From the NCBI GenBank assembly GCA_938075195.1, contig CALJGK010000060.1:1-61069 (forward strand): DNA of 61,069 nt. The letters run 5' to 3'. The translations under genes were made by a program, and so were the position numbers. Below, one piece after another: positions 1,707-7,252 of the stretch. The first letter of the stretch is position 1; each line of letters starts with the position of its first letter. Below the pieces are notes generated by a model. The model did no database searches. It was not told where the DNA came from and saw only the letters and a program-made list of their open reading frames with translations. The stretch is from an uncultured SAR86 cluster bacterium (GTDB lineage Bacteria; Pseudomonadota; Gammaproteobacteria; Magnimaribacterales; Magnimaribacteraceae).

Positions 1707-3062
1707 TTAATCATCAAAAGGTACTGATTCACTATCAATCATCCTTGCTGGAAAGAATACAGTTTCTGAATTATTAGATCTTAGCTGCTCTAACCACAAC
1801 ACCCCATCATAAGGCTCACTATTACCTCTCGTGCCAATAAAATCAATGTCATTATCATCATCAAGATCTACAGGAATCCACTTGTCATACATGCCTCTCT
1901 TCCTTCGTAATATATTATTCTTTTTCCAGGAATCGATATTGTTTTCGAACCATACAACGCTGCCATATGACCTGTTGGCATCATTGGTATCATCTTTATC
2001 CCTACTGCCTAAACTATAAGAGCCAGAGAATATATCTTCGTAACCATCTCCATTAATATCTGCAAGGGCAACACTAACAAGCATATCAGGTTCTATACTA
2101 CCTACTTTTTCGATATCCCATTTTTCGTTAGGGTCGCTAGGTTGATAAAGTATATAGACAGAACTCGGCCAAACAGAACTAACTATATCTAGACGCCCAT
2201 CATCATTGATATCCGCATAATCCATATTGAAACCAGTTATCCAAGAACCTGTTTCAAGAGGTTTTGAAAAGTTAATTTTATGTTCAATAAAATCAAAATC
2301 ACCATTATTTTCTAACCACAAAATTCTTTGTTCTCCTCTAGACCCAACAATAATATCCATGTCTCCATCTAGATCTAAATCAATCGGTTCAGAATTAATC
2401 GGAATACGAACTTGTGTTAAAACCAATTCTTCCCACTCCTCTCCATTCAATGGGTCATCAGGGAGTTGATAAATAGAAATATTATTGAGAGGTGCATCTT
2501 CAACATCAGGATTTTCACCTCCCTTATTCGCTGCTACAACTTCTAGCTTTCCATCCTGATTAAAATCAGAGAAAAAAACCCTTATAAAAGAGCCTCTATT
2601 AAGAGAAATTTTAGGAATAGTCCTTTTCCAATATACGGACCTATGTTCCGAGGAAGGATTTTTGAAATAAATCAGATGGGCCAACTCGCATGCGACTATT
2701 ATATCCAACCACCCATCTCCATCAGCATCAGCGATATCTACATCTTCAGCAGAAGGGACTTCGGAACCAGAGGCTAAAGTTGTAAGCTCCCAAGTAAGAG
2801 GATCATCTGATCCCCATGCAATTCTTACGTAACCCTTTGGGACGCCATATTCTGTATCCAACTCATGTACAGAAACAATATCTAAATAACCATCTCTATC
2901 CAAATCAGCCACTTCCAATCCATCACTACCTGATAAATCAGAAGGTCCCAACAGAGGGTCATCTATGATGTGTTCTTTCCATACAATATTGGTTTGCGCA
3001 CTGAAATAACCCACAAATAATGTTGTGATAATTATTGATATTATTTTTGAATATATTCCCAT
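1707..3062 (-). CDS. secreted FG-GAP/VCBS repeat beta-propeller protein
   Basis: A signal peptide covers roughly residues 1-23. About seven repeats follow, each with an acidic calcium-binding loop of the form D-x-D-x-D-G-x-x-D-I (for example DLDRDGYLDIV, DADGDGWLDII, DINDDGRLDIV, DINGDGYEDIF). This fits a seven-bladed integrin-alpha-like propeller of the FG-GAP/VCBS type. Such proteins are exported and often bind ligands or surfaces; no catalytic motif is visible. Its start overlaps the end of the upstream serine hydrolase gene by 22 bp, so the two are probably translated from one message. Function unknown. Confidence 0.8.
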   Translation of the reverse strand: MGIYSKIISIIITTLFVGYFSAQTNIVWKEHIIDDPLLGPSDLSGSDGLEVADLDRDGYLDIVSVHELDTEYGVPKGYVRIAWGSDDPLTWELTTLASGSEVPSAEDVDIADADGDGWLDIIVACELAHLIYFKNPSSEHRSVYWKRTIPKISLNRGSFIRVFFSDFNQDGKLEVVAANKGGENPDVEDAPLNNISIYQLPDDPLNGEEWEELVLTQVRIPINSEPIDLDLDGDMDIIVGSRGEQRILWLENNGDFDFIEHKINFSKPLETGSWITGFNMDYADINDDGRLDIVSSVWPSSVYILYQPSDPNEKWDIEKVGSIEPDMLVSVALADINGDGYEDIFSGSYSLGSRDKDDTNDANRSYGSVVWFENNIDSWKKNNILRRKRGMYDKWIPVDLDDDNDIDFIGTRGNSEPYDGVLWLEQLRSNNSETVFFPARMIDSESVPFDD

Positions 3063-4063
3063 AAGTTATTGTTAAAATGTTGATCATTTGGAAAAGAGCC
3101 TAGTCTTACTAAAACTATCTCCTCACTTGGAATGATAGCCAAAATACGGTTCCCCCACCCCAAAGCAAGGATAGTTTCTTCAGGTGCTTTGGGTAATAGG
3201 TTTCCAGAAGAAAGGTCTTTGTCCCATGTCATAAACGATGTTGTGTTATTGAGCCACCATAAATATCCGTAAGCTTCATTCAAATCTTGTGATTTAGAGA
3301 AAGAATCATCAAAATAATCTATATCCGAAATGATATGGTTAGTCCCGACTTCCCCGCCATTTAGAATAAATTCTCCAAACTTTAAAAGATCCTTTGCGGT
3401 AGTAACCAGTCCATATTTAGAAGAATCTTTAGGGAATCCCATAACTCCTTTCCTTCTTTCCTTCCAAAAGGTTTCTTGCATTTCCAATTCTTTAAAGAGC
3501 CACTCTGATGAGAGATCATTAACTTGAATTCCAGATGACTTTTCTAGGACATCGATCAAATAACTATATGCCCTGCTGTTGTAAAACCATTCCGATCCAG
3601 GATCAGATAAATAATTTAGACTTGCATCTAGACCGGAAGTCATTGTGAGTAAATTCCTTACAGTAATTAGATTTTCTTTTTCCTCTTCAAGCTGAGTCCA
3701 TTTTCCAATATATAGAGAGACAGGGTTATTAATATCTATTAGCCCTTTTTGTTGAGCTATGCCAATTAATACTGAAACAAAACTTTTTTGAATAGAAGCC
3801 ACATCTTCCTGGCTTCTATTTTGAACAAAACCATGTTGTAGTAAATTTGTAAATGTTACGCTCTTTGGATTGAAACTATTTTTAATTTTAAACTCTTCAT
3901 CAATTATTATTTCTCCTTTTTCTGAGACTAGAAAACTAGAAGTGTTATTATCAAGAAGGTAATTATTTAAACTATGATTTGAATCAAAATTCTTTATCGA
4001 GGTATTAATATTTAAAGGAACAAGAAGAACAAGAGCAGCTAATAATATATTACTAAGTATCAT
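3041..4063 (-). CDS. exported serine hydrolase, beta-lactamase/DD-peptidase fold
   Basis: The 340-residue product has an N-terminal hydrophobic export signal (about residues 1-20). It carries a class C beta-lactamase-type SxxK motif, Ser90-Ile-Gln-Lys93, inside the usual helix, and a Tyr161-Asn-Ser motif. A C-terminal LGWGNRILAIIP segment takes the place of the KTG/HxG strand. Families with this layout include esterases, 6-aminohexanoate-dimer hydrolases and DD-peptidases, so resistance to beta-lactams should not be assumed. It overlaps the downstream propeller gene by 22 bp and is separated from the upstream cluster by a strong terminator. Confidence 0.8.
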   Translation of the reverse strand: MILSNILLAALVLLVPLNINTSIKNFDSNHSLNNYLLDNNTSSFLVSEKGEIIIDEEFKIKNSFNPKSVTFTNLLQHGFVQNRSQEDVASIQKSFVSVLIGIAQQKGLIDINNPVSLYIGKWTQLEEEKENLITVRNLLTMTSGLDASLNYLSDPGSEWFYNSRAYSYLIDVLEKSSGIQVNDLSSEWLFKELEMQETFWKERRKGVMGFPKDSSKYGLVTTAKDLLKFGEFILNGGEVGTNHIISDIDYFDDSFSKSQDLNEAYGYLWWLNNTTSFMTWDKDLSSGNLLPKAPEETILALGWGNRILAIIPSEEIVLVRLGSFPNDQHFNNNLWEYIQK

Positions 4064-4090
4064 TTCAGTAATGCTAACAAAATAACAAAA

Positions 4091-4115
4091 AAAAACGGCT
4101 TAAATAGCCGTTTTT
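4091..4115 (-). terminator. bidirectional intrinsic terminator of the secreted-protein operon
   Basis: A perfect 10-bp stem, AAAAACGGCT (4091-4100) and AGCCGTTTTT (4106-4115), closes a 5-nt loop TAAAT. Runs of T follow on both strands. It lies 16 bp after the stop of the 4131-4886 gene and separates that operon from the hydrolase gene. Confidence 0.9.
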
Positions 4116-4130
4116 TTTGTCTTATCGTTT

Positions 4131-4886
4131 TTAGCTTTCCGGTTGATCTAATCTAATATTAGTAGATTTATATAGCCTTGGAGTATCACAGTTATGAATT
4201 TCTTCTGGTCTTGTGTCAGCCATCATAGCTGCAAATCTTGCATCTCTACTTTGACCATACTGTTCAACTGAGTCAAAACTAGCAACCATCCAATAATCTA
4301 AGGTTAGAGAAGTAGGAGAACCAGTTTCAGGCCACCATCTCCAAATACCACCCTCAAAACCACTATTATCAAGGTATTTATTCCAAGTTTTGCTATTTCC
4401 TTCCAAATCAGACATAGATTTTCCTTCTTTAAAGGAACACGATGAAATAGAAGCATATCCTATGCCATCAGCTTCCCAAGGATTCTTTGGAGTTCTAACC
4501 TCCACATTAAGATTCATAGATTGGCCAGCACATTCGGTCACTGAATTCCATCTAGCAGCAATCTTGCTAGCACCATTTTGAAAATCGTCCTGCACCCTAC
4601 CCATTTCTTTAAAGGTATTTGTAAAACCCAAAAACATAAAATCAAAATCATAATCACTATTTGATCTATAAACGGGAGTAAAGATCCAAGCATTATAAGG
4701 AGCACCAAAATTTTCATCTCCAAATTCGTTCCATTGAGAAATTACTCTCATGACATCATCCATATCCTTACCTTCTGAAAAATTACATTGCAAACCTTCC
4801 ATGGCCGCCAGTTCAATATGATCGTCAGCAGACAAAAAGCTTGTCAATGCAAAGATAAGAGATAGTAAAATTATTTTTATTTTCAT
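4131..4886 (-). CDS. secreted two-domain protein of unknown function (paralogue of 6377-7138)
   Basis: I do not recognise a named family. The 251-residue product has a signal peptide (about 1-20) and then two similar halves. Each half opens with a cysteine and an EGK-x-M-x-D-like motif (CNFSEGKDMDD at 34-44, CSFKEGKSMSD at 150-160) followed by a Trp-Asn pair. Cysteines fall at 34, 119, 150 and 233, so each half could hold one disulfide about 85 residues apart. The length and repeat pattern suggest two fused dimeric-alpha/beta-barrel (ABM-like) modules in the periplasm; the fold is inference. Last gene of a four-gene unit ending at the 4091 terminator. Ribosome binding site AAGGA. Confidence 0.75.
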   Translation of the reverse strand: MKIKIILLSLIFALTSFLSADDHIELAAMEGLQCNFSEGKDMDDVMRVISQWNEFGDENFGAPYNAWIFTPVYRSNSDYDFDFMFLGFTNTFKEMGRVQDDFQNGASKIAARWNSVTECAGQSMNLNVEVRTPKNPWEADGIGYASISSCSFKEGKSMSDLEGNSKTWNKYLDNSGFEGGIWRWWPETGSPTSLTLDYWMVASFDSVEQYGQSRDARFAAMMADTRPEEIHNCDTPRLYKSTNIRLDQPES

Positions 4887-4900
4887 TATTTTCCTTTTTA

Positions 4901-5635
4901 TTAGTTTGTTAGAAATTCTTGAATGGTTAAGGCTGAATCATAAACTCTTGCATTGATCAGAAGATCGTTTCCTTTCCATTCAGACAATTGATCCATTTTT
5001 TTCCAGAATTGGTTTATGGCTTTATTGGAAGCTAATTGATCTTCCCAGGACTCCATTTCCTCAATAGATGAATAACCCACTGTTAAAAGGTGAGTAACAT
5101 CTTCTTGGCCAAAAGCTACTGCAGATAAACCAAATTGACCTGGAAATTGCCCTTTCGTATCTTTATCTACTTTTTCAAAAGCTTTCATAACGGCTGCAAC
5201 TTTTGAAGGCTTGACATTCAATTGGTGGATTAACCACACAACATGATCATTTGAAGCAGTTCCGTACGATTGAACAAAAGAATTTATCCTCTCAGTAATA
5301 GGTGTGGAGTTTGCATTTAAAACAGCATAAAACTTCTGACCTTCAGGACTATTCTGAAGTGAAGTCATCCATTCTTGATGGGCAGCCATACTCGGTTGTA
5401 AAAGTGCAAAAGAGTGAGTTGCAGTATTACTTCCATTGGCGAGATAAACGTCTAAATGTGAAGAGCCTTTAAAGTTGCTTTTAGTAAATTCAGAAGCCAT
5501 TAGCTCGTCACTAGCTGCGACTATTTTTGCTGCAGACTCTTGTGTATCAACTTTGAAGTCGTACTGTGTCCATATTTGCCCAGCAGAAATATAAGCAGTT
5601 GATATTGCTATTAAAGTTATTAATAATTTTTTCAT
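4901..5635 (-). CDS. secreted two-domain protein of unknown function
   Basis: This 244-residue protein has a clear signal peptide (about residues 1-19, cleaved near ISAGQ) and no cysteine in the mature part. Two ~105-residue halves are suggested. The second starts near SNDHVVWLIHQLNVKP, and each half carries a strand-helix-helix-strand pattern like small dimeric alpha/beta barrel (NIPSNAP/ABM-type) domains. No catalytic signature was found. It sits 14 bp before the 4131 gene and 9 bp after the 5645 gene, so it is surely in the same operon. Related in plan, but not obviously in sequence, to the other three products. Confidence 0.7.
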   Translation of the reverse strand: MKKLLITLIAISTAYISAGQIWTQYDFKVDTQESAAKIVAASDELMASEFTKSNFKGSSHLDVYLANGSNTATHSFALLQPSMAAHQEWMTSLQNSPEGQKFYAVLNANSTPITERINSFVQSYGTASNDHVVWLIHQLNVKPSKVAAVMKAFEKVDKDTKGQFPGQFGLSAVAFGQEDVTHLLTVGYSSIEEMESWEDQLASNKAINQFWKKMDQLSEWKGNDLLINARVYDSALTIQEFLTN

Positions 5636-5644
5636 TTTTTTTTC

Positions 5645-6358
5645 TTAATTATTTACCGATAAAGTTGTGCATTGCATCATAAAATCTATTACCGGTTGTC
5701 TGATTCCATCAAATGTTGACATGGATTCAGTCATCCAAGAAGATTCTCTTTGGTCGAAAAAGGCTCCCAGCCTGTCTCCATTTGGAGCTTGTACACTTGC
5801 CATTACAGTACCTGCACGATCACCGGAGGCTACAGATACATATAGAGCAACTGATATATCATCGAATCCATTTCTAGCAGCAGCAGTTTCCATATTTGTT
5901 AATGCTTTTATATAACCACTTACATCATTAGTTCTAGATACTAGATTGTAATTTGCATTTGTTGTACCTGCATCTCCAACAGAGTCGCCTTTAGCAACAT
6001 AATAAGCATCTCTCCTGATCACTTCTCTTTTTGAAGCTATCCTCTTAAGAGATCTTTGGACATCTTTATCTTCAAACATAGAGTTTCCACCAAACATAGC
6101 GGCTTGAGAAGGTGCAAAACTCCAAACATAATGTTCATTTGCTTCACTACCACCTGCTGTAGGAGAACATATACCCTGAGCTATTACTCTGTCTCCTTGA
6201 GCCTTTTGAAATATTGGCTGTGTGTCAGTGAGCCATTTCACATAACCCTGGGGGTCGTCAGTTGTTATTGTAATTACGTTCAATCCCTGCAAAGCAAAAA
6301 TTGAAGAAGAAAGTAAAAGCCCTACGAAAAGGCTGGTTGTTTTTATTATTAGTTTCAT
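5645..6358 (-). CDS. secreted two-domain protein of unknown function
   Basis: The 237-residue product carries a signal peptide ending near residue 22 (SSSIFALQG). The mature protein again looks like two ~100-residue halves, with a second domain starting around NANYNLVSRTNDVSGYIKAL. It has two cysteines, one in each half (GICSP and MQCTT), which could pair. The ribosome binding site is AGGGA before the ATG. No known family or active-site motif was recognised. As second gene of the four-gene exported cluster, its role is presumably tied to the other three. Confidence 0.7.
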   Translation of the reverse strand: MKLIIKTTSLFVGLLLSSSIFALQGLNVITITTDDPQGYVKWLTDTQPIFQKAQGDRVIAQGICSPTAGGSEANEHYVWSFAPSQAAMFGGNSMFEDKDVQRSLKRIASKREVIRRDAYYVAKGDSVGDAGTTNANYNLVSRTNDVSGYIKALTNMETAAARNGFDDISVALYVSVASGDRAGTVMASVQAPNGDRLGAFFDQRESSWMTESMSTFDGIRQPVIDFMMQCTTLSVNN

Positions 6359-6376
6359 AATTTTTCCCTATTAATT

Positions 6377-7138
6377 TTAATTATTTGAACTTCTTGCTTG
6401 TGTTGCTAAAAATACCCTTGCATCTTCACATTGCATTAGACTACCGTAGATAGAAGCTTGCATTGCAGCTCCTCCACCATTAACCATGGCATCAGCACTA
6501 GCACCCCACTGTGAGAGACTTGAAGTGGTGTTTGCAGCCAAGAAATCATATTTAGATGTCCAGGATAATTGCACACCAGGCCCAGGAAACCATCTGTACA
6601 TGCCGCCTGTATTTCCAGTTTGATCTGCAAAAGCATTCATCTTTTTATCTGCAGACATTAAGTCTTCTGTTGTTGTACCTTCAGTTAACTTACAACTTGA
6701 GAGGTTTAAAACTCCTCCTCCGTCATTTGATGAAGCTCTTACTGTATAACTACCCCAAATATCATGCTCAGCACAGGAAGTAACCTTGTCAAACTTGGCT
6801 TGAATTTTTGCACCCTCTCCGGAAAGCATAAGTTCTTGAGCCTTACCCATTTCTTCAAAAGAAGTGGAGAAACCTATCCAGTGGGTGTCATATTGTTCGT
6901 CAGTGTTTGTGTAATATGGATCTAAGAAATAACTACTGTAATTAATGCCAGAGTCATCGATAAATTTATTCCATTCTTTAACAACTCTTAGATCATCATC
7001 CCTGTCCTTGCCTGGATTGTAAACGCATGCAAAGTGTTCCATAGGAACAATTGTTGGTTGTTCGTGGCCATCAGATAGAATATTGAAAGAAAGAAATAAG
7101 AAAATAACAGGCAGTAAAGCCCCTTTTTTGAGTCGCAT
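6377..7138 (-). CDS. secreted two-domain protein of unknown function (paralogue of 4131-4886)
   Basis: First gene of the four-gene unit. The frame is open further upstream, but the ATG at 7138 has a strong AGGAGAGG site six bases before it and begins a signal peptide (about residues 1-22), so I take this start (253 residues). Cysteines at 38, 122, 149 and 237 match the four of the 4131 protein in place and spacing. The motifs CVYNPGKDRDDD, EWNKF, GFSTSFEEMGKAQ and SSCKLTEG have direct counterparts there. The sequence shows tandem duplication within the protein and gene duplication within the operon. Function unknown. Confidence 0.78.
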   Translation of the reverse strand: MRLKKGALLPVIFLFLSFNILSDGHEQPTIVPMEHFACVYNPGKDRDDDLRVVKEWNKFIDDSGINYSSYFLDPYYTNTDEQYDTHWIGFSTSFEEMGKAQELMLSGEGAKIQAKFDKVTSCAEHDIWGSYTVRASSNDGGGVLNLSSCKLTEGTTTEDLMSADKKMNAFADQTGNTGGMYRWFPGPGVQLSWTSKYDFLAANTTSSLSQWGASADAMVNGGGAAMQASIYGSLMQCEDARVFLATQARSSNN

Positions 7139-7156
7139 TTGACCTCTCCTTTTATA

Positions 7157-7175
7157 CCGATGGAATAACCATCGG
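7157..7175 (-). promoter_or_regulatory. leader hairpin in the 5' UTR of the secreted-protein operon
   Basis: CCGATGG (7157-7163) and CCATCGG (7169-7175) form a perfect 7-bp stem with a 5-nt loop. The stem ends six bases before the AGGAGAGG ribosome binding site of the 6377-7138 gene. It is much more GC-rich than its surroundings. It could protect the mRNA or tune translation. There is no U-run after it, so it is not a terminator. Confidence 0.6.
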
Positions 7176-7223
7176 AATTTAAATAACAGAGAACGCTCCC
7201 CAACAATCTCCAAGCTTGAGAAG

Positions 7224-7252
7224 AATTTATTGTGTTTTAAAACACATGTCAA
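7224..7252 (-). promoter_or_regulatory. sigma-70-type promoter with a 16-bp palindromic operator in its spacer
   Basis: On the minus strand a perfect -35 TTGACA (7252-7247) is followed by exactly 17 bp and a -10 TAAATT (7229-7224). Sixteen of the spacer bases form a perfect palindrome, TGTGTTTTAAAACACA (7231-7246). Predicted transcription starts near 7217 and leaves a leader of about 79 nt. The placement between the two promoter elements is that of a repressor operator. Confidence 0.65.

Follow-up and report, generated by a model that had tools for sequence, protein, structure and literature searches.

The subject of this analysis is an array of four adjacent genes, here designated D, C, B and A in the order of transcription, in a 61,069-nucleotide stretch (the window) of an uncultured SAR86 cluster bacterium (Gammaproteobacteria, Magnimaribacterales; contig CALJGK010000060.1 of GenBank assembly GCA_938075195.1). 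SAR86 is estimated to make up 2-6% of surface-ocean microbes (PMC11582366), and its genomes are about 1-1.6 Mb in size. The array, at positions 4131-7138, is well beyond chance, and its proteins are a new family and an unusual variant, exported and with predicted disulfides, within a known superfamily. A first-pass annotation of the window had described four adjacent signal-bearing genes, and all four open reading frames are indeed present on the minus strand (Table 1), each product having a hydrophobic signal-type segment at its N-terminus, as judged by eye from the sequence. The genes are separated by 18 bp (D-C), 9 bp (C-B) and 14 bp (B-A). Gene D starts at an ATG at 7138 behind GGAGAGG, and this GGAGAGG-ATG arrangement is conserved among relatives; the TTG at 7252, which had been listed as its start, instead belongs to the promoter hexamer TTGACA.

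Table 1. Genes and regulatory features of the array in the window
Feature	Position	Strand	Description
Promoter-like TTGACA-17-TAAATT	7224-7252	minus	10/12 matches to the pattern
Leader element TTGGAGATTGTTGGGGAGCGTTCT	7190-7213	minus	conserved, at the array head
Leader hairpin CCGATGG-TTATT-CCATCGG	7157-7175	minus	just upstream of the ribosome site
GGAGAGG of gene D	7143-7149	minus	ribosome-binding site
Gene D	6377-7138	minus	first of array; 253 residues, A/D-type, four cysteines, secreted, two-domain
Gene C	5645-6358	minus	237 residues, C-type subfamily, secreted
Gene B	4901-5635	minus	244 residues, B-type subfamily, cysteine-free, secreted; His74 and His182 at equivalent places in both halves
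Gene A	4131-4886	minus	last of array; 251 residues, A/D-type, secreted, predicted tandem dimeric alpha+beta barrel
Intrinsic terminator	4088-4118	minus	13-bp stem and T-run, closes the array

Fold, predicted disulfides and relations of the array proteins

The products of the first and the last gene had been taken for paralogues with four matching cysteines, and they align along their length with 36% identity (E 7.5e-36), the cysteines of A being C34 and C119, 85 residues apart, and C150 and C233, 83 residues apart. The proposed division of each protein into two similar halves is likewise borne out by the structural model of A, by the motif GKx...DxxxxxxxWN...D, which is repeated in an alignment (A1), and by free-standing secreted homologues that consist of a single domain of 120-129 residues and carry one pair of cysteines, one of them encoded in the same genome as the window. 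These homologues show independently of the model that each half forms a domain.

The AlphaFold model of A (mean predicted local distance difference test score, pLDDT, 89.7; predicted template modelling score 0.82; 43 sequences in the alignment) comprises a signal helix and then, in the first half, a strand (25-36), a helix (42-59), two strands (65-73 and 83-89), helices (92-116) and a last strand (117-131), a succession that is repeated in the second half (142-245). The element order, E-H-E-E-H-H-E / E-H-E-E-H-E, corresponds to two βαββαβ ferredoxin-like modules. The top match of this model in Foldseek was 2PGC (E 6.9e-8, template modelling (TM) scores 0.64 and 0.76), to which it was also aligned by VIA-align with a Z of 16.1 over 199 residues at 3.0 Å. 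2PGC is JCVI_PEP_1096685590403, a marine-metagenome protein that has been solved and is uncharacterised; like A, it has two ferredoxin-like halves in the same arrangement in a single chain (~206 residues), but the two are only 7-11% identical, and in the aligned stretch inspected no pattern of four cysteines can be made out. Sulfur oxygenase reductase, a cytoplasmic iron enzyme of about 307 residues, is also a tandem dimeric alpha+beta barrel that matches A over its full length (Z ~15). Further matches were found with putative monooxygenases and an anthrone-oxidase-like protein (Z ~12; 11.9-12 for the monooxygenases), and with chains of the DyP and chlorite dismutase types (Z ~10). The ABM-type proteins (3F44, 3MCS, 5F9P and PenE, 9KDP) have tandem modules, belong to the same superfamily and are among the best matches of both A and B; they resemble A and B by fold, but a sequence family match is absent, and we know of none of these types that forms disulfide-pinned exported arrays.

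The model of B is weaker (pLDDT 69.6, 12 sequences), yet it has two ferredoxin-like halves with the element order of A. Its top Foldseek matches are the tandem putative monooxygenases, 2PGC and PenE, and their TM scores are low because the placement of the halves in the model is unreliable. Berberine-bridge-type flavoenzyme domains, offered by VIA-align for B, were set aside, the arrangement between the halves being of low confidence. It is well supported that A and D are each a dimeric alpha+beta barrel within a single chain, formed by the fusion of two ferredoxin-like modules. The earlier guess of tandem dimeric alpha/beta modules agrees with all three structural methods for A and, through the weaker model, with the element order of B, and the folds of these two proteins are not unrelated; its qualification as ABM/NIPSNAP-like holds for the fold and fails for the sequence, by which A and D are members of neither family.

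That no family had been recognised in the first-pass annotation is consistent with our searches. The curated cut-offs of Pfam and NCBIfam were reached by none of the four proteins, nor by 64 A/D relatives, and these profile searches matched no characterised family; scores above the cut-off were absent for the ABM, NIPSNAP, DUF1330, DUF6854 and heme oxygenase profiles. The best sub-threshold profiles, DUF6854 (E 0.021; 15.6 vs 27 bits), DUF1330 (E 0.077; 13.8 vs 23 bits) and heme oxygenase (E 0.047), were matched weakly by B and C, and presumably belong to a clan consistent with the fold found. Profile and sequence searches against PDB sequences gave no significant match to the family, and neither did PHROGs or PADLOC. 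No relative was found in viral contigs, phages or plasmids, and thus a mobile or viral origin is without support. A description of the family was not found in the literature searched, in which most subscription papers lay outside the reach of the search.

Direct profile comparisons among A/D, B and C are weak (hhalign probabilities 14-48%). Iterated profile searches unite the B and C types, and some of these are afterwards reached from D; C is tied to the B type by profile homology only, through the iterated search and a mixed B/C profile. It is well supported by iterated searching together with the fold that B and C are diverged relatives of A/D. 2PGC is absent from the matches of the A1 profile up to E 10, the B profile gives a weak alignment with it that is in register (E 0.41), and a 109-residue piece of it had no match in 202 SAR86 genomes in a search run with no positive control.

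The four cysteines are complete in 108 of 118 A/D proteins; the other 10 lack exactly C34 and C119, a single loss was seen in none, and C150/C233 is retained in all 118. C34 lies at the end of strand 1 and C119 at the start of strand 4, and C150 and C233 are at the equivalent places in the second half. Since strands 1 and 4 are adjacent in the ferredoxin-like topology and the cysteines are lost in pairs, each half probably carries one disulfide, C34-C119 and C150-C233, as judged from pattern and topology.

Distribution and variation of the array

With A as the query, matches were found in 129 of 203 genomes of the order Magnimaribacterales, covering 21 of its 22 genera, and with the mixed B/C profile in 84 of 202 genomes of this SAR86 order. 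The named records carrying family loci belong to SAR86 cluster bacteria or to metagenome-assembled genomes of unclassified Gammaproteobacteria, which places the window itself in SAR86. Outside the SAR86 order, a sample across the class yielded one matching genome, and the gammaproteobacterial order to which it belongs has homologues in 61 of 296 genomes. In this second order the homologue often adjoins a class-V aminotransferase and an ECF-type (extracytoplasmic-function) sigma factor (L124-L133, L135, L138), a conserved neighbourhood of its own.

In the SAR86 family of the window, the array occupies one fixed site, with an acetyltransferase/MATE on one side and a beta-lactamase-type hydrolase, an FG-GAP protein and a desaturase on the other. 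Complete arrays comprise 3-6 genes, and their content differs between genomes: D-C-B-A in the window, D-C-B-A3 in L043, D-C-X-A2-A-A3 in L038 and D-D2-A2-A-A3 in L036. Conservation of the four-gene order had been proposed as a test; the cluster is kept in related genomes, and the four genes of the window represent one configuration of an array of variable content. In a tree of the members, well-supported clades cut across genomes, and the order of paralogues is consistent between arrays; as the clades cut across genomes, the paralogues are of old origin and have been lost or exchanged patchily, not freshly duplicated.

The variable content, between flanks that stay constant even in close relatives, might suggest surface or envelope proteins under diversifying pressure from phage or grazer avoidance or from adhesion, with the barrel as a scaffold and the array varying through its exposure. 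Comparison of the window with L043 also shows lower conservation at the array centre (B 56% and C 67%) than in the flanks (desaturase 80% and acetyltransferase 90%). However, the ratio of nonsynonymous to synonymous substitution rates (dN/dS) is 0.063 for A vs a close relative and 0.057 for D vs L043, a comparison in which dS is high, which strongly indicates purifying selection on both genes; furthermore, the paralogues form old clades whose order is maintained, collections of phage, plasmid and defence sequences gave no match, and the array genes have no surface anchor, a lipoprotein look being limited to distant members. We therefore consider a surface role improbable.

Several observations concern the surroundings of the array. 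A beta-lactamase-type serine hydrolase (PF00144; window 3041-4063) lies directly behind its terminator, and both this gene and the FG-GAP gene are absent from some relatives. In comparison with L058, the FG-GAP gene (window 1707-3062) has a dS of 0.15 vs 0.33-0.53 in its neighbours, which suggests recombination at the edge of the array.

Copies of the family were counted by hand in ten SAR86 genomes, with two profile searches merged by place and weak fragments excluded. There are 7 copies in the genome of the window (83% complete), 9 in G177, 13 in G015 and 3-6 in the seven others. Elsewhere in SAR86, further clusters of 2-6 relatives occur, and some relatives are lipoprotein-type; the largest cluster seen (L165:4153-8714, in G015, a 1.3-Mb genome with ~13 copies) holds six genes of several subfamilies on both strands. 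TonB receptors are found near some family copies, one of them in the window's own genome, where a TonB-dependent receptor is found two genes away from a lipoprotein-type A/D relative (L101:7132-12397, contig 62). At another locus (L106:6643-9025), a family gene adjoins a secreted SnoaL-like protein and two small exported proteins that have no Pfam match and resemble the same fold by eye. Beside a B-type gene at L168:4882-5517 there is a cytoplasmic-looking tandem protein of 211 residues, possibly of the fold and size of 2PGC.

Promoter, leader and terminator

The first-pass annotation had given the array its own promoter and terminator. The TTGACA-17-TAAATT pattern alone is not above chance (12 found vs 13.8 expected), yet its position is conserved in the closest relatives, L043, L035 and L036. 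In each of 12 genomes inspected, an equivalent of the terminator's stem and T-run follows the final gene of the array. Probably the whole array is transcribed together, with a promoter of its own, a structured leader ahead of the first gene and a terminator of its own at the end.

Between the promoter and gene D lies a conserved leader element of the form GGAGA-n-AGTTGGGGAGCATTCT. Among 35 genomes of the family, it is almost array-specific, being found at an array head in nearly every case; one exact match lies off the array inside pckA, and one match with a single mismatch occurs in G163. Further downstream, a hairpin is located 4-7 bases ahead of GGAGAG, the stem being kept in genomes that differ in its sequence. 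The local hairpin fold beats shuffles in each of 9 leaders of the genus (p 0.003-0.033), which are related, partly share stems and are not independent, and it is not clear against shuffles in 2 leaders of a neighbouring genus. In most genomes the folding of the leader as a whole is unremarkable (z -1.5 to 0.3, with one exception), the MAFFT alignment of the leaders misregisters the 3' arm of the hairpin and so gives no basis for a claim of covariation, and the leader has no match in Rfam. The UUCUC of the leader element is predicted to be able to pair with GGAGAGG, and the hairpin probably sets or regulates the translation of gene D.

Possible roles in the periplasm

We propose that Sec would carry the proteins into the periplasm, where they would be oxidised, and that in each of them the two sheets may pack into one barrel whose interior would serve as a small-molecule pocket, by analogy with other members of the superfamily. 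The paralogues would differ in this pocket, and the array could therefore be a kit whose members bind ligands or act as enzymes without a cofactor, close to the binding or enzyme subunits supposed in the first-pass annotation, handling a range of hydrophobic compounds (lipid, sterol, aromatic) that would enter via TonB-type receptors, with gene gain and loss tuning the range of compounds to the lineage. We favour this account, in which hydrophobic compounds are bound as ligands or converted without a cofactor in the periplasm, because of the exported location, a fold that mostly holds a small molecule and the paralogue expansion; its probability as a whole is roughly 0.4, and any single substrate class is less likely than that. 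In a published description, SAR86 breaks down lipids as well as steroid and aromatic compounds, has TonB receptors in abundance and processes lipids in the periplasm (PMC11582366).

A number of points weigh against this account. No catalytic residue, substrate or ligand is recognised, the fold spans many functions and cannot alone fix one, and the neighbours of the array form no obvious lipid or steroid pathway. The TonB adjacency comes from a few hand-picked loci in a genome rich in such receptors, and the signal peptides were judged by eye. In addition, the arrangement of the B halves is uncertain (Foldseek TM ~0.3, with VIA-align favouring flavoenzyme domains), and the structural models cover A and B.

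The conserved residues bear on two further explanations. The best conserved non-cysteine positions of A/D include, in the numbering of A, E30, D44, W52, Y64, P71, D82, W85, G87, P186, G189, D197 and Y239, the W85 position being Phe in A itself. At the start of strand 3 there is Asp in A/D (82 and 197), His in the B type (74 and 182) and a mixture in C. The B-type histidines are conserved in 17 or 18 of 18 proteins, as read by eye. On the other hand, A/D have no conserved histidine, the best column reaching 42% of 118 proteins, which speaks against a heme site or an iron site of the kind found in sulfur oxygenase reductase, where a mononuclear iron is held by two histidines and a glutamate.

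It is conceivable that the proteins serve the iron supply by binding or degrading heme, as periplasmic relatives of chlorite dismutase, DyP/EfeB or IsdG. The better structural matches of A include chains of the chlorite dismutase, coproheme decarboxylase and DyP types, the B-type histidines occupy equivalent positions in both halves, and many SAR86 receptors carry an iron-siderophore annotation (PMC11582366). Chlorite dismutase, coproheme decarboxylase and DyP peroxidases, which have two ferredoxin-like folds per chain and belong to superfamily CL0032 (PMC7611857), bind porphyrin; A/D, in contrast, lack a conserved histidine such as serves as heme ligand in the porphyrin-binding barrels (Cld, ChdC, DyP, OxdA, IsdG), the C-type proteins are without a second-half histidine, and no heme family profile was reached, which makes a heme role very improbable, though the case is less clear for B with its conserved His74 and His182. 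In a specific form of the favoured account, aromatic or polycyclic compounds would be converted in the periplasm by oxygenases or lyases that need no cofactor and are of the antibiotic-biosynthesis-monooxygenase kind. Full-length matches such as 3F44 and 3MCS (putative monooxygenases), 5F9P (anthrone-oxidase-like), PenE and sulfur oxygenase reductase are in keeping with such chemistry, as is the degradation of aromatic and steroid rings by SAR86, but a conserved catalytic set is not recognisable, the subfamilies differ at the matching strand-3 position and the family-level profiles are not reached; this form is unlikely.

To the earlier description of the locus, the present analysis adds the predicted disulfide pairing, the variable but ordered array, the order-wide expansion together with the second order, and the leader hairpin. 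The cysteine-pair rule, the subfamily-specific residues of strand 3 and the leader hairpin are each open to direct experiment, and the cultured SAR86 strain HIMB1674 (PMC11582366) makes tests of localisation and ligands possible. In its widest form, which we advance with considerable doubt, the interpretation would be that an unrecognised class of periplasmic pocket proteins has expanded in the streamlined SAR86, each array being a lineage-specific kit that carries lipids, sterols or aromatics as ligands or acts on them without a cofactor, with an array-specific leader RNA able to hide the ribosome site. The keeping of 3-13 copies of an unannotated exported family in genomes of this small size is a strong sign of its usefulness to these organisms.

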